Part shown: positions 54,613-63,991 of the stretch, piece after piece
Layout of the letters: each line of letters opens with the position of its first letter
How positions within the stretch are numbered: the stretch's first letter is position 1
Program-made: the position numbers and the translations under genes
The notes under the pieces: generated by a model
The model's input: the letters and a program-made list of their open reading frames with translations, nothing else
Told to the model about the DNA's origin: nothing
Database searches by the model: none
Assembly (NCBI RefSeq): GCF_028471945.1
Contig: NZ_CP110128.1
Coordinates: 1,538,501 to 1,602,500 of the forward strand
DNA from: Pseudomonas sp. WJP1
GTDB taxonomy: Bacteria > Pseudomonadota > Gammaproteobacteria > Pseudomonadales > Pseudomonadaceae
Length of the DNA stretch: 64,000 nt
Reading direction: 5' to 3'

Positions 54613-54708
54613 AGGAGCGAGCTTGCTCGCGATGGACGTCCAGACAGCGCGATCATTCAGGCAGCACGCGTTATCGTTCACGTCCATCGCGAGCGGGCTC
54701 GCTCCCAC
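54613..54708. repeat. REP-type inverted pair, slightly diverged
   Basis: Left arm 54613-54638 (AGGAGCGAGCTTGCTCGCGA, then TGGACG) and right arm 54681-54708 pair with mismatches at two or three positions. Located between the convergent ends of the EamA and LysR genes. Confidence 0.8.
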
Positions 54709-54726
54709 AGGGAATCGGGCTTCATT

Positions 54727-55665
54727 TCAGGCCTTCGCATGTTCGGCACGTACCGAGTTCATGAACGCCTGCATCGCCGACGACTGGATGCGATGGCGGC
54801 GGGTGATCAGCCCGTAGGGTGGCAAGCGTGCTTCGAACTTGATCGGCAGCACCGCCAGCAGGTCACGACCGGGATAATCCTCGACCACCGACACCGGCGT
54901 GACACCGAGCATATCGGTCTGCTGAATCAACGAGAGCAAGGTCATGATCGAGGTGGTTTCGACGATGCTGCTCGGAATATCGACCCGCGCATTGTGGAAC
55001 ACCTGGTTGATGATCGCGCGCATCGGGCTTGGCTGTTGTTGCAGCACCCAGGTCATGTTCTGCAGTTCTGCCCAACCCAGTTGCTTCTCTTGCGCCAGCG
55101 GATTTTGTGCACCGGCAATCACACACAGTTCTTCTTCACCCAGGCTGTCGAACAGCAGTTCTTCGGCCCGTGCTCCGGGTGGAATACGCCCCAGCACGAT
55201 GTCCAGTTGATCCTGCAACAGCGCCTGCACCAGCACGTCGCTGGTGTCGACCTGGATGCTCATGGACAGGCGTGGATGGCTTTGCTTCAAGGTCGCGATG
55301 GTGCGGGTCAACAACCCCGAGGCCAGCGCCGGAATCGCGCCAACGGCGACCCGCCCCAGGTTGCCCGATTGCAGGGCCACCAGTTCTTCGCGCATGCCGC
55401 TGAGTTCGGCGAAGACCATGCGGGCGTAGTAGATGACGGTTTCCCCGAACGGGGTCGAGCGCATGCCCCGCGGCAGGCGTTCAAAAAGCTCGACGCCGAG
55501 CAAATCCTCAGCCTCGTGCAGCATCTTGGTCGCTGCCGGTTGAGTCATGCCGATGTGGTCGGCGGCACGGCGCAACGAGCCGAACTCCTCCAGCGCCAGC
55601 ATCAGCCGTAGCTGGCGTAGTCGCAAACGACTGTGGATCACATTGGCATCAGGAATTCGGGACAT
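54727..55665 (-). CDS. LysR-family regulator of the sugar-acid cluster
   Basis: The 312-residue protein has a winged helix (about 12-72; LMLALEEFGSLRRAADHIGM, then TQPAATKMLHEAEDLLG) and an effector domain (about 95-300). The form of the HTH fits the GbpR/CbbR-like branch whose members sense sugars and organic acids. It is the last gene of the minus-strand run TctC-TctB-TctA-LysR. A 15-bp motif repeated in this cluster is its likely binding site. ATG 55665 begins MSRIPDANVIHS. Confidence 0.88.
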   Translation of the reverse strand: MSRIPDANVIHSRLRLRQLRLMLALEEFGSLRRAADHIGMTQPAATKMLHEAEDLLGVELFERLPRGMRSTPFGETVIYYARMVFAELSGMREELVALQSGNLGRVAVGAIPALASGLLTRTIATLKQSHPRLSMSIQVDTSDVLVQALLQDQLDIVLGRIPPGARAEELLFDSLGEEELCVIAGAQNPLAQEKQLGWAELQNMTWVLQQQPSPMRAIINQVFHNARVDIPSSIVETTSIMTLLSLIQQTDMLGVTPVSVVEDYPGRDLLAVLPIKFEARLPPYGLITRRHRIQSSAMQAFMNSVRAEHAKA

Positions 55666-58892: not shown

Positions 58893-58983
58893 TGAGTGAC
58901 TTGTTGGCGTTCGAAAGCTGCAAGCCTGGCCAGAGTGTGGGAAGGCGCCGCCGCCGCGTCTAGTCAAAACAATACATACACCG

Positions 58984-58998
58984 ATAGCCTGGGGTTAT
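58984..58998 (-). promoter_or_regulatory. 15-bp cluster motif, copy 1
   Basis: Reads ATAACCCCAGGCTAT on the minus strand. The ends ATA and TAT form the partial dyad and spacing expected of a LysR box. About 120 bases upstream of the TctC-type gene. Confidence 0.6.
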
Positions 58999-59075
58999 AG
59001 CGCGGCAAACGAAGCAGGATTTCCTACAAAAAAATGTATGCCTGCGTTGAAAGCTCATTGAAAGCACGGCATGCC

Positions 59076-59090
59076 ATAACCCGAAGCTAT
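59076..59090 (+). promoter_or_regulatory. 15-bp cluster motif, copy 2
   Basis: Reads ATAACCCGAAGCTAT on the plus strand, 13 of 15 identical to copy 1, in the opposite orientation. It lies about 117 bases upstream of the MFS start codon, so copies 1 and 2 are placed symmetrically between the divergent genes. Confidence 0.6.
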
Positions 59091-59180
59091 CACCTGATTT
59101 CAAGTTTTGATTAGACGGTTATCACCGGGCCTTCGATAGTGCCCACACAGGTCGCCACGACGCGACGCGCTTGCAACCAC

Positions 59181-59188
59181 AACAATAA
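59181..59188 (+). promoter_or_regulatory. AAnAAnAA tract at the MFS ribosome-binding site, candidate Hfq/Crc site
   Basis: AACAATAA is an exact match, followed by AAAA and then CGAGG before ATG 59207. The whole A-rich run spans 59181-59192. Confidence 0.5.
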
Positions 59189-59206
59189 AAAATCGAGGTA
59201 CGCACC

Positions 59207-60547
59207 ATGGCTCGTCCCAGTGCTTCCCTGCATCTGCCTGGCGCAGGTGCTGCGACCGCCGAAGCGGCAATGCCACAAGCGGGTACTGCCAAGGCCAGCA
59301 ATGTGCGTTGGCGGATCTTCGCGATCATCTTTGCGCTGACCATGGTCAACCTGATCGATCGGGTCTCGCTGTCCATCGCCATGCCGACCATCGCCCATGA
59401 GTTTTCCCTCACTCCGAGCATGCAGGGCTTGATCCTCAGCAGCTTCTTCTGGGCCTACGCGCTGTTGCAGATTCCCGGCGGCTGGTTGATCGACCGCTTC
59501 GGACCGCATCGGGTCATCAGCTGGTCCACCGGGTTGTGGGGCACGTTCCAGGTGCTGGCGGCGTTCGCCACCGGCGGCCTGTCGTTGTTGTTTGCCCGCG
59601 TGGCCTTGGGGGCCTCGGAAGCGCCGCTGTTTCCGTCCGGCGGCAAGCTGATCTCTTCGTGGCTGGCGCCCAGCGAACGCAGTCGCGGAGCGGTGTTGAT
59701 GGACAGCGGGAGCCCGTTGGGCGTGGCGCTCGGTGGGTTGATTATTGCCTACCTGATTGCTTCGCTGGACTCCTGGCGCCTGGCCTTCGTGATCGCCGGT
59801 GTGGCGACCCTGTTGCTGGCCTGGCTGGCGCGGCGTTATCTGCGTGATGACCCGACCAGTCACCCGCAGGTCAATGCCCTGGAGCTGGCAAAGATCAACG
59901 CCGGGCGCGCCACGCCGGCCGCCGAAGCCGCCCGGGCACCGGTCAAGGGCCTGGGCATCGCCGCCCGTTCCCTGAGCGGGTTGCTGATCGGTCGTGCCAG
60001 TTGGGCGATGGTGTATTTCGGCCTGCTCACCTGGGGGCCGAGCTATCTGGCGCAAGCCCGGGGGTTTGATATCAAGGGCATTGGTGCGGCGACCTTCGTG
60101 ATTTTCGTCTGCGGCGCACTGGGTTCGTTGACCGGTGGTTTCCTTTGCGACGGCTTGATCCGCAAGGGCGTGCGTCGCGGGGTGGCGGTCAAGAGCCTGC
60201 TGGCGTTTTCCGGCCTGGTGGCCCTCGGCGCGTTCCTGCTGCTGCCGACCCTGAGCGATCCTTTTGCGGCCGTGGCGCTGTTGGCCATGACCGCGTTTTT
60301 CCTGATGTGGGGCAGCCTCTACTGGAGCTTCCCGGCGTTGCTGGCGGCGCCGGCGCGGGTCGGTTTGATCGGCGGTGTGATGAACATGGCCGGCAGCACC
60401 GGCGGTATCGCGGTGCCGATCCTGGTGGGGGTGATCCTGCAAATGAGCGGTGGCTTCGCCCCTGTGCTCGGGTTCTTTGCCGCGTGCTCGGCAGTGTTTG
60501 TACTGGCGACTTTGTTTATCAGTCTCGACGAGGTGCGTTATGGCTGA
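59207..60547 (+). CDS. ACS-family MFS permease of the sugar-acid cluster
   Basis: The 446-residue major facilitator has twelve helices after a hydrophilic N-terminal tail of about 35 residues. NLIDRVSLSIAMPTIAHEF in helix 1 and IPGGWLIDRFGPHRVI in loop 2-3 are typical of the anion:cation symporter (ACS) family, which carries glucarate, galactonate, hexuronates and phthalate. It starts the plus-strand catabolic operon and overlaps the amidohydrolase gene by eight bases. ATG 59207 has CGAGG upstream. Confidence 0.9.
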   Translation: MARPSASLHLPGAGAATAEAAMPQAGTAKASNVRWRIFAIIFALTMVNLIDRVSLSIAMPTIAHEFSLTPSMQGLILSSFFWAYALLQIPGGWLIDRFGPHRVISWSTGLWGTFQVLAAFATGGLSLLFARVALGASEAPLFPSGGKLISSWLAPSERSRGAVLMDSGSPLGVALGGLIIAYLIASLDSWRLAFVIAGVATLLLAWLARRYLRDDPTSHPQVNALELAKINAGRATPAAEAARAPVKGLGIAARSLSGLLIGRASWAMVYFGLLTWGPSYLAQARGFDIKGIGAATFVIFVCGALGSLTGGFLCDGLIRKGVRRGVAVKSLLAFSGLVALGAFLLLPTLSDPFAAVALLAMTAFFLMWGSLYWSFPALLAAPARVGLIGGVMNMAGSTGGIAVPILVGVILQMSGGFAPVLGFFAACSAVFVLATLFISLDEVRYG

Positions 60548-61496
60548 GCGTTGGAATGGACCGATCATCGATGCCCATCATCACTTCTGGGACCCCTCGA
60601 TCAATGACCATCCGTGGCTGGCACCCGACGCCAATATTGCGTTTCGCTACGGCGATTACACCGCGATCAAGCGCCGCTATTTTCCCGAGGATTACTTCGC
60701 CGATGCCGGTGAGCATCGGGTGGTGCAAACGGTATACGTCGAGACCGAATGGAACCCCCAGGACCCGATTGGCGAAACCCGGTTCATCGAGCAACTGGCT
60801 GCCCGTTACGGGGTGCCCAATGCGATCGTCGCCCAAGCCTGGCTCGACCACCCGGACGCTATTGCTGTGCTCGCCGAGCAGGCCACCTACAAGTGCGTGC
60901 GCAGCGTGCGGCACAAGCCCGGCGGGCCGACGTCACCCGAACAGTTCGGACGGGTGCGCAGCCTGATGAGCGACGAGCACTGGCGGCGCAGTTACGCCGC
61001 GCTGGAGGGACTGGGCCTGCACTTTGATCTGCAGACCCCCTGGTGGAACCTGCCCGAGGCCGAACGGCTGGCCCGGGATTTCCCCGGCATCACCCTGATT
61101 CTCAATCACGCCGGGTTGCCCAACGACCGCAGTGCCGAAGGTTTGGCGGGGTGGCGAGCGGCGATGGCGCGGTTGGCGCAGTGGCCGAACGTGCAAGTCA
61201 AGATCTCCGGCCTGGGCCAGGCGGGCCGGGCGTGGCGCGCTATCGACAACGCCTGGATCGTGCGCGAAATCATCGCGATGTTCGGCACCAAGCGAGCGAT
61301 GTTCGCCAGCAACTTTCCGGTGGACAGCCTGTGTGGCTCGTTCGACGACATCTACAGCGGTTTCAAATTCATCGTCGCCGATCTGCCCATGGCCGATCAG
61401 GAGCGACTGTTCTACAGCAACGCGCAGCGAATCTATCGCTGCGAACCTTGCGCCATTGACCGGGCGCTGCCTGAATCCTTAAGGAGTGAAGCATGA
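60540..61496 (+). CDS. Amidohydrolase-family lactonase-like enzyme (COG3618 type)
   Basis: The 318-residue TIM-barrel hydrolase begins with metal motif IIDAHHHFWDPSINDHPWL (HxH), has ILNHAGLP with a late histidine, and MFASNFPVDSLCGSFDDIY with the catalytic aspartate region. This branch includes L-rhamnono- and L-fuconolactone hydrolases and 2-pyrone-4,6-dicarboxylate lactonase, so opening of a sugar-acid lactone is the likely job. ATG 60540 lies inside the MFS gene end, and its own stop overlaps the PdxA-family ATG. Confidence 0.87.
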   Translation: MAERWNGPIIDAHHHFWDPSINDHPWLAPDANIAFRYGDYTAIKRRYFPEDYFADAGEHRVVQTVYVETEWNPQDPIGETRFIEQLAARYGVPNAIVAQAWLDHPDAIAVLAEQATYKCVRSVRHKPGGPTSPEQFGRVRSLMSDEHWRRSYAALEGLGLHFDLQTPWWNLPEAERLARDFPGITLILNHAGLPNDRSAEGLAGWRAAMARLAQWPNVQVKISGLGQAGRAWRAIDNAWIVREIIAMFGTKRAMFASNFPVDSLCGSFDDIYSGFKFIVADLPMADQERLFYSNAQRIYRCEPCAIDRALPESLRSEA

Positions 61497-62497
61497 ACAA
61501 GACAACCATCGCGATGGTCCTGGGTGACCCGGCGGGCATCGGCCCGGAACTGATCGCGCGCTTGCTCGGCGAGCCCGATGTGCGCGGCCAGGCCAACGTG
61601 ATCCTGATTGCCGACGAAGCGGAAATGCGTCGTGGCATGCGCATCGCCGGGGTGGAGTTTCCATATCGCCGGGTGGAGTCGCTGGAGCAGCTGTCGTTCG
61701 TCGATGACACACCGTTGTTCTACGATTTTCGCGGCGACACCGTCGGTGAATTTCCCCGCAGCGAGGCCAGCGTCATTGGCGGTCGCTACAGCCTCGACAC
61801 CCTGGAAATCGCCCTGCGCCTGACCGAGTCCGGGACCACCGACGCGATATTGTTCGGGCCGTTGAACAAGACCTCGCTGCACATGGCCGGCATGGCCCAC
61901 AACGATGAGTTGCACTGGTTCGCCGAGCTGCTGGATTTCCACGGACCGTTCTGCGAGTTCAACGTGCTCGACAACCTCTGGACTTCACGGGTGACGTCTC
62001 ACGTGGCGTTGGCCGAGGTCTCGGGGCTGCTCAGCCAGGAACGGGTGGTGGAAGCGATTCAACTGATCGACACCGCGTTGAAGCGCAATGGCCTGGAGAA
62101 ACCAAGGATTGGCGTCTGCGGATTGAACCCGCACAACGGCGACAACGGCTCGTTTGGCCGCGAAGAGCTCGACATCATCGGCCCGGCGGTGCGCAAGGCC
62201 CAGGCACTGGGCATCGCGGCGGAAGGACCGTACCCGGGCGACACGATTTTCCTCAAGGTCCAGGGCGACGCCAGCGCCTTTGACGCGGTCGTCACGATGT
62301 ATCACGACCAGGGGCAGATCGCGATCAAGCTGATGGGCTTCTCCCGTGGCGTCACGGTGCAGGGCGGCTTGCCGATCCCGATCACCACCCCGGCCCATGG
62401 CACCGCATTCGACATCGCAGGGCAGGGCAAGGCCAACGTCGGTGCGACGCGCCAGGCGTTCGAGATTGCTTGCCGGATGGGTGGCAACAGCTACTGA
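61493..62497 (+). CDS. PdxA-family 4-phospho-hydroxyacid dehydrogenase
   Basis: The 334-residue protein has GDPAGIGPELIARLL, the metal and substrate segments GPLNKTSLHMAGMAHNDELH, VCGLNPHNGDNGSFG, TMYHDQGQIAIKLMGF and TTPAHGTAFDIAGQGKANVG, which match PdxA. Catabolic PdxA2 enzymes oxidise and decarboxylate 4-phospho-threonate or -erythronate; TphB of terephthalate breakdown is a relative. Context favours a catabolic role over vitamin B6 synthesis. A partner kinase is not in the window. ATGA overlap with the amidohydrolase. Confidence 0.88.
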   Translation: MNKTTIAMVLGDPAGIGPELIARLLGEPDVRGQANVILIADEAEMRRGMRIAGVEFPYRRVESLEQLSFVDDTPLFYDFRGDTVGEFPRSEASVIGGRYSLDTLEIALRLTESGTTDAILFGPLNKTSLHMAGMAHNDELHWFAELLDFHGPFCEFNVLDNLWTSRVTSHVALAEVSGLLSQERVVEAIQLIDTALKRNGLEKPRIGVCGLNPHNGDNGSFGREELDIIGPAVRKAQALGIAAEGPYPGDTIFLKVQGDASAFDAVVTMYHDQGQIAIKLMGFSRGVTVQGGLPIPITTPAHGTAFDIAGQGKANVGATRQAFEIACRMGGNSY

Positions 62498-62514
62498 TAA
62501 AACGCACAACCTCC

Positions 62515-62603
62515 TGTGGGAGCGGGCTTGCTCGCGAAAGCGGTGGGTCAGTCACTGAAGAAGTGCCTGGCCTGACGCCTTCGCGAGCAAGCCCGCTCCC
62601 ACA
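62515..62603. repeat. REP pair with a T-tract, possible terminator of the MFS-amidohydrolase-PdxA operon
   Basis: Exact 24-base arms at 62515-62538 and 62580-62603 (core GGGAGCGGGCTTGCTCGCGA). Eight T residues follow the second arm, so it may end transcription as well. Confidence 0.85.
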
Positions 62604-62656
62604 TTTTTTTTGCGTGAAGCCTGATAACTCGATCTACCGGATAACTGCTTTTTCCT

Positions 62657-62671
62657 ATCACCCCAGGTTAT
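62657..62671 (+). promoter_or_regulatory. 15-bp cluster motif, copy 3
   Basis: Reads ATCACCCCAGGTTAT, 13 of 15 identical to copy 1, on the plus strand, 145 bases upstream of the enolase-superfamily start codon. Confidence 0.55.
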
Positions 62672-62815
62672 CGCCGGATACGCATAAGTGATTATCCGCA
62701 GCTCCCGAGGGCTGGCTAAAGTCGCTCCATCGAATGCCTGGTACCGGTCACCCGAGCGGCTCCACGCAGCGACACAACAATGACAAGAAGCCGGCAGCGC
62801 AAGGAAACTGTATTC

Positions 62816-63991
62816 ATGAAAATCAAAGCGATCCGTACCCGCGTTTTCGAGTGGAAAGGCAAAGTCGTCCCACCTCAGGCGCACTTTTGCACCAACGCCA
62901 GCGACATCCTGTTCGAGCGCGGCGACGCCATGGGCTCGTTCCGTTTCCACGGCTGGCTGGTGGTGGAAGTCGAGACCGACAACGGCCTCATCGGCATCGG
63001 CAACTGCGCCCTGGCGCCGCGGGTGGCCAAGGAAATCATCGACACTTACCTCGCACCCATCGCGATTGGCGAAGACCCGTTCGACAACGAATACATCTGG
63101 CAGAAAATGTACCGTCAGAGCCACGCCTGGGGGCGCAAAGGCATCGGCATGGCGGCCATCTCGGCAATCGACATCGCCATCTGGGACATCATGGGAAAGG
63201 CGGTCAACAAGCCGGTGTTCAAGCTGCTCGGTGGCCGTACCAAGGAAAAGATCTGGACCTACGCCTCCAAGCTCTACGCCAACGACAACCTCGACCTGTT
63301 CCTCGAAGAAGCCCAGGGCTATCTGAACCAGGGTTTCACCGCGCTGAAAATGCGCTTCGGCTACGGTCCCAAAGACGGCCCGGCAGGCATGCGCAAGAAC
63401 ATCGAACAAGTGCGCGCCTTGCGTAACCTGGCCGGCCCCGACGTCGACATCATGCTCGAATGCTACATGGGCTGGACCCTCGAATATGCCCGGCGCATGT
63501 TGCCCAAGCTGGCCGAGTTCGAGCCGCGCTGGCTGGAGGAGCCGGTGATCGCCGACGACATCGAGGGTTACATCGAGCTGAAAAAAATGGGGATCATGCC
63601 GATCTCCGGCGGCGAGCACGAGTTCACCTCCTACGGCTTCAAGGACCTGCTCGAACGTCGTGCCGTCGACGTGATCCAGTACGACACCAACCGCGTCGGC
63701 GGCATCACCGCCGCGCGCAAGATCAACGCCATGGCCGAGGCCTGGTCAGTGCCGGTCATCCCGCACGCCGGGCAGATGCACAACTACCACCTGACCATGT
63801 CCACCACCGCCTCGCCGATGGCCGAGTTCTTCCCGGTGTTCGACGTCGAAGTCGGCAACGAACTCTTCTACTACGTGTTCAAGGGCGAGCCGCAACCGGT
63901 CAACGGCTACATCCAGCTCGACGACAACAAACCGGGCCTGGGCCTGGAAATCTCCGATGAGTACCTGAGCGACTTCAACATCATCGAGTGA
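62816..63991 (+). CDS. Enolase-superfamily sugar-acid dehydratase, L-rhamnonate-dehydratase-like
   Basis: The 391-residue protein has the capping domain (about 1-130) and barrel. Likely metal ligands are in [17 protein letters not shown] and ISGGEHEF; the His-Asp dyad of the rhamnonate dehydratase branch is in [12 protein letters not shown] and [11 protein letters not shown]. Where E. coli RhmD has Asp as first ligand (MLDCWM) this has Glu. It removes water from a sugar acid to give a 2-keto-3-deoxy acid; substrate open. ATG 62816 starts [13 protein letters not shown]. Only nine bases follow before the window ends. Confidence 0.85.

Follow-up and report, generated by a model that had tools for sequence, protein, structure and literature searches.

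Three conserved two-box repeats as probable operators of a PA2206-type LysR regulator in a putative sugar-acid gene cluster of Pseudomonas sp. WJP1

Introduction

LysR-type transcriptional regulators (LTTRs) are described as acting at operators of 50-60 bp in which a T-N11-A motif lies near -65 and an activation site lies towards -35 (PMC8407307). The closest described system to the one considered here is PA2206 of Pseudomonas aeruginosa, for which electrophoretic mobility shift assay (EMSA) and promoter fusions showed binding and activation at ATTGCCTGGGGTTAT, a box that precedes PA2214-15; scarce homologues hindered the definition of a PA2206 consensus (PMC3557286). We examined a related locus in a 64,000-nucleotide stretch of the Pseudomonas sp. 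WJP1 genome (contig NZ_CP110128.1, positions 1,538,501 to 1,602,500), referred to as the window. Three 15-bp repeats lie ahead of genes for a tripartite tricarboxylate transporter (TTT; tctCBA), a major facilitator superfamily (MFS) transporter, and an enolase-superfamily dehydratase. We consider it about 0.9 probable that the LysR-type regulator whose gene closes the tctCBA operon uses these repeats as its operators.

The likeness between the PA2206 motif and that of PcaQ has been noted before (PMC3557286, PMC10926688); the PcaQ box of Sinorhizobium meliloti is given as ATAACC-N4-GGTTAT (PMC3557286) and as ATAaccgggggatTAT (PMC5002191). In a literature search conducted mostly without subscription papers, PMC3557286 was the only work recognised on this regulon.

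Results

The three sites, each with its recognition box, are the following.

58984..58998, minus strand: site 1 recognition box, ATAACCCCAGGCTAT (T-N11-A), facing tctC; in 67/67 named loci
59076..59090, plus strand: site 2 recognition box, ATAACCCGAAGCTAT, facing the MFS gene; in 63/64 checkable named loci, at 0 or 1 mismatch to a 38-bp pattern
62657..62671, plus strand: site 3 recognition box, ATCACCCCAGGTTAT, facing the enolase gene and by position the counterpart of the PA2206 box; in 56/58 checkable named loci and in the sister-genus locus L142

A preliminary description had presented these 15-mers as agreeing at 11 or more of 15 positions pairwise, with two of them between divergent transport genes and one before the enolase gene. 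Coordinates and strands were exact, the pairwise identities are 13/15, 13/15, and 11/15, and the placement was confirmed: the 344-bp gap between the divergent tctC and MFS genes holds sites 1 and 2, and the 318-bp gap upstream of the enolase gene holds site 3. The common pattern ATMACCCNANGNTAT, built from the three sites themselves, has three exact matches in the 7,004,124-base genome, which are sites 1-3, and its reversed control has none; thus, when its frequency elsewhere in the genome was checked as had been proposed, the exact pattern was confined to the three sites.

Such short repeats might resemble each other by chance, or derive from copying of a single promoter, without any role in regulation. 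With 2 mismatches allowed, the 15-mer pattern is common in the genome and unspecific (5 matches in the window versus 2.9 expected; 366 in the genome versus 175 for the reversed control). However, although 11 of 300 dinucleotide shuffles of both gaps gave some triple with all pairs at 11/15 or better, the real total of 37/45 matches was never reached (maximum, 35). This control, together with the pattern of conservation described below, makes the chance explanation hardly credible.

Each 15-mer is the first part of a conserved block of ∼42 bp, with ∼27 further conserved bp on the promoter side. The block opens with the palindromic T-N11-A box; 21 bp downstream comes a second T-N11-A, followed by a -35-like hexamer. 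Further features are an invariant C, AT at +7/+8, and TGA at +18 to +20, the TGA giving the second T-N11-A exactly 21 bp on. The hexamer, TAGACG or TATCCG, begins at +22 and is followed by a 17-bp spacer (one base shorter in some site-3 loci) and the -10-like hexamers CACACT, GATAGT, and CTAAAG, the last of which is just moderately conserved. Counted from these hexamers, which were picked by eye, the box centre would lie near -64/-65 at all three predicted promoters.

58963..58977, minus strand: second T-N11-A box of site 1, of the activation type, 21 bp on from the recognition box; T and A kept in 67/67 distinct sequences
59097..59111, plus strand: site 2 second T-N11-A box; 63/63 distinct sequences
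62678..62692, plus strand: site 3 second T-N11-A box; 56/56 distinct sequences
58957..58962, minus strand: predicted -35 TAGACG of the tctC promoter, by eye; columns 37-42 all 1.00 in set 1
58934-58939, minus strand: predicted -10-like CACACT of the tctC promoter, by eye; columns 60-65 all 1.00 in set 1; 17-bp spacer variable between loci (0.96 bits)
59112..59117, plus strand: predicted -35 TAGACG of the MFS promoter, by eye; columns 37-42 0.87-1.00 in set 2
59135-59140, plus strand: predicted -10-like GATAGT of the MFS promoter, by eye; columns 60-65 1.00 in set 2; spacer fairly conserved too (1.50 bits)
62693..62698, plus strand: predicted -35 TATCCG of the enolase promoter, by eye; columns 37-42 0.80-1.00 in set 3
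62716-62721, plus strand: predicted -10-like CTAAAG of the enolase promoter, the weakest -10 guess, by eye; columns 60-65 0.59-0.95 in set 3, partly owing to a one-base length change

The LysR-box character ascribed to the 15-mers was borne out, as every distinct sequence has the T-N11-A palindrome expected of an LTTR operator (67/67 at site 1, 63/63 at site 2, and 56/56 at site 3, window included). The activation-type second site between the box and -35 is present in every distinct sequence, in 6/6 boxed loci outside the genus, and at site 3 of L142. The spacing from box to -35 is constant, whereas the gaps differ in length between loci, as does the distance separating site 1 from site 2. The earlier idea that a 15-bp motif marks a LysR regulon is supported as regards the regulon but needs correction as regards the operator, which is a two-box element rather than a 15-mer, ∼27 bp having been overlooked.

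Conservation was assessed at 67 named Pseudomonas loci from a single TctC scan. Matches to lysR, tctA, tctB, and tctC were found in this order on one strand at 67/67 loci (the LysR match is partial in L055 and L077), with further matches to the first MFS gene at 53, the amidohydrolase gene at 59, pdxA at 63, the enolase gene at 58, the AraD1 gene at 56, and the aldehyde dehydrogenase gene at 38; contig and locus ends explain part of the missing matches. One of these loci, L035 of P. umsongensis DSM 16611, shows 95-99% protein identity. A 38-bp two-box pattern was derived from these same loci, so their fits to it are partly by construction, and the comparisons described further below are more independent. 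Site 1 is the best conserved, with 0 mismatches to this pattern at every locus. Site 2 has 0 mismatches at 60 loci and 1 mismatch at 3 (of 64, after three loci without the partner gene were left out); where the first MFS gene has no match, the site is still present, preceding the amidohydrolase or pdxA gene. The denominator of 58 for site 3 leaves out nine loci without an enolase match. Conservation at orthologous loci, on which the preliminary description had made its case depend, is therefore high for all three sites.

Information per column was calculated from 67, 63, and 56 distinct 120-mers (window included; L096, L080, L081, and one duplicate per set dropped). At sites 1, 2, and 3, the 25 upstream columns average 0.42, 0.77, and 0.67 bits; the box, 1.89, 1.53, and 1.77 bits; the 27 columns after the box, 1.85, 1.65, and 1.81 bits; and the following 17 columns, 0.96, 1.50, and 0.93 bits, the site-2 spacer thus also being rather well conserved. 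Both boxes and the hexamers hold most of the conservation; the flanks upstream vary, as do the spacers of sites 1 and 3. This argues against chance resemblance; so does the loss of site 3 at loci where its promoter may be dispensable (L080 and L081).

In order to relate the block to a protein, 297 genomes of the genus were scanned for the enolase (E ≤ 1e-120), LysR (E ≤ 1e-130), and the exact 38-bp block; this sample overlaps the named loci in species groups and is not fully separate from them. The enolase was found in 43 genomes, LysR in 45, and the exact block in 42, with no match to the reversed-pattern control among the genomes listed. All 42 exact-block genomes carry both LysR and enolase, and they are the enolase genomes minus G092, in which the block has 1 mismatch. 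The exact block is missing from all 252 genomes that lack LysR. There are two extra LysR genomes. In the 14 kb examined of G026 (75% identity), neither a cluster match nor a block with up to 3 mismatches was present. In G268, one contig carries a short aldehyde dehydrogenase piece and a truncated LysR match that begins at residue 29. Reduced loci show a similar association. L106 and L108 have kept lysR, a second-type MFS gene, and the enolase gene, with the block between the divergent lysR and MFS genes (0 and 1 mismatch, respectively). In these loci (16-18 kb each), no match to the TTT, first MFS, amidohydrolase, pdxA, araD1, or aldehyde dehydrogenase genes was found, the only other cluster match being a DMT transporter gene beside the enolase gene. 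L107 has no TTT match, and its block lies ∼400 bp ahead of lysR.

Beyond the genus, a class sample of 369 genomes included 3 with the enolase and a phylum sample of 398 included 10 (the WJP1 genome and G403 are in both), and all ten loci outside the genus (L121, L122, and L131-L138) were examined. A LysR match adjoins the operon in seven of them, divergently in L121, L132, L134, L135, L136, and L137 and in the same direction in L131. Six of these seven have a box at 11/12 or better in the gap between lysR and the operon; these 6 boxes fall in 1,294 gap positions versus 0.12 expected (17 in 188,149 positions elsewhere), although any P value is inexact because the gap bounds were set after the boxes were seen and the loci are related. 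All six have a T-N11-A at +21 facing the operon, and L132 has a degenerate box only, read by eye. Since the LysR of L121 is just 37% identical to that of the window, the half-sites and layout have been kept longer than much of the protein sequence. Where no LysR match was found (three loci), no box adjoins the operon: L122 has none at 11/12 or better anywhere in the locus, L133 has one ∼6 kb from the enolase gene, and L138 has one distant box and one within the enolase gene, the T-N11-A at +21 of the latter being put down to chance.

Taken by itself, a 15-bp palindrome would fit several regulator families, and it might be used by another DNA-binding protein, such as a GntR- or IclR-type repressor encoded elsewhere; according to its open reading frame list, L122 has a GntR-like regulator beside pdxA and the enolase gene. 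However, L122 has neither the box nor a LysR match, the exact block never occurs without this LysR in the 297 genus genomes, two T-N11-A boxes at a 21-bp spacing are LTTR-like (PMC8407307), and the counterpart box has been proven for PA2206 (PMC3557286). It is very unlikely that another protein uses these sites in place of LysR. The co-occurrence within the genus, L106 and L108, the boxes outside the genus, and the published PA2206 EMSA support a link between the three sites and the LysR protein of 54727-55665.

The relationship to PA2206 was traced through a sister genus. The PA2206 box, which is the reverse complement of ATAACCCCAGGCAAT, is 14/15 identical to site 1 of the window. Among 25 sister-genus genomes searched for LysR and the published 15-mer, G1043 has a LysR protein 83% identical to that of the window (95% over residues 14-75) and an exact PA2206 box 8.2 kb from the LysR gene. 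The 15-mer was also found in G1052, which lacks LysR; this copy was taken as chance, as it lies inside a 1,035-nt stop-free frame, with no T-N11-A at +21 on either strand and no Rfam match. The G1043 region, L142, has matches to all eleven cluster proteins bar the DMT transporter. Its exact PA2206 box is at the site-3 position, points to the MFS-enolase genes, and is followed by a second T-N11-A and by AAGTGATTATCCG, the same sequence as downstream of site 3 in the window. L142 differs from the window in having an extra PA2214-like MFS gene between site 3 and the enolase gene and in lacking a good site 2, whereas sites 1 and 2 of the window are both good boxes. Given that the published box is matched exactly, and given the gene order, we infer that G1043 is a P. 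aeruginosa relative and that its LysR is the PA2206 protein. High identity and the same neighbourhood, as expected of PA2206 orthologues, are both found via L142 (83%; shared cluster). On these sequence comparisons, the window LysR is most likely the counterpart of PA2206, and site 3 that of the proven PA2206 box.

The second, PA2214-like MFS gene between site 3 and the enolase gene was also observed in L044, L045, L058, L069, L074, L079, L096, L097, L106, L108, L113, L114, and L116; in the 13 loci tested besides L106, L142 included, the protein is 79-94% identical to the L106 copy. No second MFS gene or detectable remnant is present at 62657-62816 of the window. Inverted repeats were noticed by eye at 62512-62606 (after pdxA) and 54614-54710 (beside lysR). 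We take them to be REP-like, and they may explain part of the variation in gap length between genomes.

The genes of the cluster within the window are as follows.

54727..55665, minus strand: LysR-type regulator, proposed binder of the three sites and PA2206 counterpart; HTH_1 (PF00126, 59.7 bits) and LysR_substrate (PF03466, 141.3 bits); 83% identical protein in L142
55735..57264, minus strand: tctA, large membrane subunit of the TTT; PF01970
57261..57794, minus strand: tctB; PF07331
57849..58862, minus strand: tctC, substrate-binding protein, first gene behind site 1; PF03401
59207..60547, plus strand: MFS transporter, first gene behind site 2; PF07690
60540..61496, plus strand: amidohydrolase (lactonase-like); PF04909; weak L-fucono-1,5-lactonase match (82.7 bits versus a cut-off of 400)
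61493..62497, plus strand: PdxA-family dehydrogenase (PdxA2-like); PF04166; nearest solved relatives include D-threonate 4-phosphate dehydrogenase
62816..63991, plus strand: enolase-superfamily sugar-acid dehydratase, first gene behind site 3; MR_MLE domains; nearest solved structures 3stp, 3ssz, and 3sqs

Past the window end, the enolase gene is followed by genes for an AraD1-family protein (GguC model, 554.5 bits; cut-off, 340) and an aldehyde dehydrogenase. The best NCBIfam match of the latter, alpha-ketoglutaric semialdehyde dehydrogenase, is far under its cut-off (101.6 versus 770). The cluster looks like a sugar-acid route ending in alpha-ketoglutarate. The proposal that the motif ties the separated enolase gene to the rest of the cluster is supported; the AraD1-family and aldehyde dehydrogenase genes also follow behind site 3. 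L-Lyxonate was considered as the substrate; two papers citing its source do not settle the matter, and no substrate is claimed. Outside the genus, a DapA-like gene was seen near the enolase gene in L121, L131, L134, L135, L136 (∼6 kb away), L137, and L138, and the AraD1 query had no match in these seven loci, which suggests a different fate of the keto-deoxy acid.

Similar sequences elsewhere in the WJP1 genome were also considered. A wider regulon was rejected, as the 38-bp pattern has 3 exact matches, none at 1 mismatch, and 5 at 2 mismatches and so gives nothing but the three sites at up to 1 mismatch. Of the 21 one-mismatch 15-mer matches listed, 16 were examined: 7 lie before 23S rRNA genes, 8 are in stop-free frames of at least 597 nt (some clipped), and 1 is elsewhere. 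The first seven are copies of ATAACCCCAAGCAAT just before 23S rRNA genes (G000:C1 112818, 722189, 727692, 5231727, 5647163, 6051560, and 6391732) and by context are not members of the regulon. The remaining one, ATAACCCGTCGTTAT (L151; G000:C1:3310077-3310091), is in no frame longer than 135 nt and is absent from the 38-bp pattern matches at up to 3 mismatches. Outside the genus, an extra box was observed in L137 (14269-14283, minus strand) ahead of an MFS gene near the operon; ttcattagacgg downstream of it resembles the Pseudomonas -35 region.

Discussion

Direct observation covers the site sequences with their conservation and spacing, their co-occurrence with LysR, and synteny with the PA2206 box of PMC3557286; LysR binding in this organism, activation, the inducer, operon limits, and transcription starts are predicted from it. 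At each operator, the palindromic box ATMACC-N3-RGYTAT (T-N11-A), with a predicted centre near -64/-65, would provide high affinity, and the second T-N11-A box, two helical turns (21 bp) closer to the promoter and abutting the -35 hexamer, would be the weaker one. By the general LTTR model, a LysR tetramer would occupy both boxes. Binding of an inducer, most likely a sugar acid or a breakdown intermediate, might then shift the tetramer on the second box so that RNA polymerase is recruited, and the three promoters (tctCBA-lysR; MFS-amidohydrolase-pdxA2; and enolase-araD1-aldehyde dehydrogenase) would be switched jointly. In the window and in 67/67 named loci, lysR is not divergent from a target gene but is last in tctCBA-lysR; the usual divergent arrangement of LTTR genes is absent because lysR sits at the end of this operon. 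As the last gene behind site 1, lysR is probably autoregulated by read-through.

Several observations weigh against this interpretation. The -35 and -10 hexamers are poor matches to the sigma-70 consensus, and the site-3 spacer varies in length. The 38-bp pattern is unselective at up to 3 mismatches (25 matches versus 11 for the reversed control). Site 2 was not detected in L096, and the site-2 position of L142 has no box at 11/12 or better. Site 3 is missing in L080 and L081, whose pdxA-enolase gap is only 59 bp; the promoter there may no longer be needed. The published EMSA concerns the P. aeruginosa counterpart PA2206 only (PMC3557286), and in that paper a program-predicted -35 is adjacent to or overlaps the PA2206 box, rather than the box being at -65; the promoter predictions thus disagree, as in the present analysis the predicted -35 lies 21 nt on. 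The same paper assigns PA2206 wider targets (pvdS and PA4881) and a role in oxidative stress, which is unexpected for a dedicated catabolic regulator, and states that PA2207-09 were unchanged by PA2206 (data not shown there).

Judging from the figure legend and L142, PA2207-09 are probably the TTT genes behind site 1. If so, site 1 may not act at all, or may require inducer to do so. LysR might then be productive at site 3 only, perhaps also at site 2, with site 1 bound without effect or for autoregulation alone. The unaffected PA2207-09 would fit such a restricted role, as would the finding that a PA2206 upstream fragment was not bound by PA2206 in EMSA (PMC3557286). However, conservation is highest at site 1, without a mismatch at 67/67 loci (with the 38-bp pattern drawn from the same loci), and the accessible text mentions no sugar-acid inducer for the PA2207-09 test (PMC3557286). 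In addition, since site 1 of L142 is ahead of tctC, it would not be contained in a fragment taken immediately upstream of lysR; the negative EMSA fits, because L142 has no box just ahead of lysR. An inactive site 1 is therefore considered unlikely, and operators at all three promoters remain the preferred explanation.

These results support well an ordinary LTTR regulon of the PA2206 type. A more general proposal, for which we see even odds, is that PA2206-type LTTRs are dedicated switches of sugar-acid catabolism that act through a rigid two-box operator at three promoters, with a layout that extends beyond the genus. In this proposal, the primary regulon in P. aeruginosa would be the local cluster rather than oxidative stress, and the label "non-classical, not autoregulated" would be an artefact of a wrong promoter and no inducer. 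New here are a consensus and two-box layout for PA2206-type operators and a metabolic reading of PA2206, which suggests metabolic control as the core role of an LTTR known from work on oxidative stress and pathogenesis. The result is a compact three-promoter regulon for a Pseudomonas sugar-acid cluster whose enolase occurs in 43/297 sampled genus genomes, and this regulon helps to focus the search for its inducer and for what the enolase-superfamily dehydratase acts on.

Among other known systems, the PcaQ box has half-sites identical to those of the window sites, with a spacer one base longer in its N4 form. The PcaQ pathway is that of protocatechuate, unlike the window cluster, and PcaQ (TIGR02424) was rejected as a name for the window LysR because this best NCBIfam match scores 154.8 bits versus a cut-off of 303.8. 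High-throughput systematic evolution of ligands by exponential enrichment (HT-SELEX) gave a PcaQ core of GGTTATG, described as monomeric (PMC7532196); no mention of PA2206 or PcaQ was found in the main text of the HT-SELEX atlas PMC8041468. Compared with the recognition and activation sites described for LTTRs in general (PMC8407307), the window operators revealed no difference in kind. What stands beside that general pattern is that the second site is itself a well-kept T-N11-A at a fixed 21 bp.

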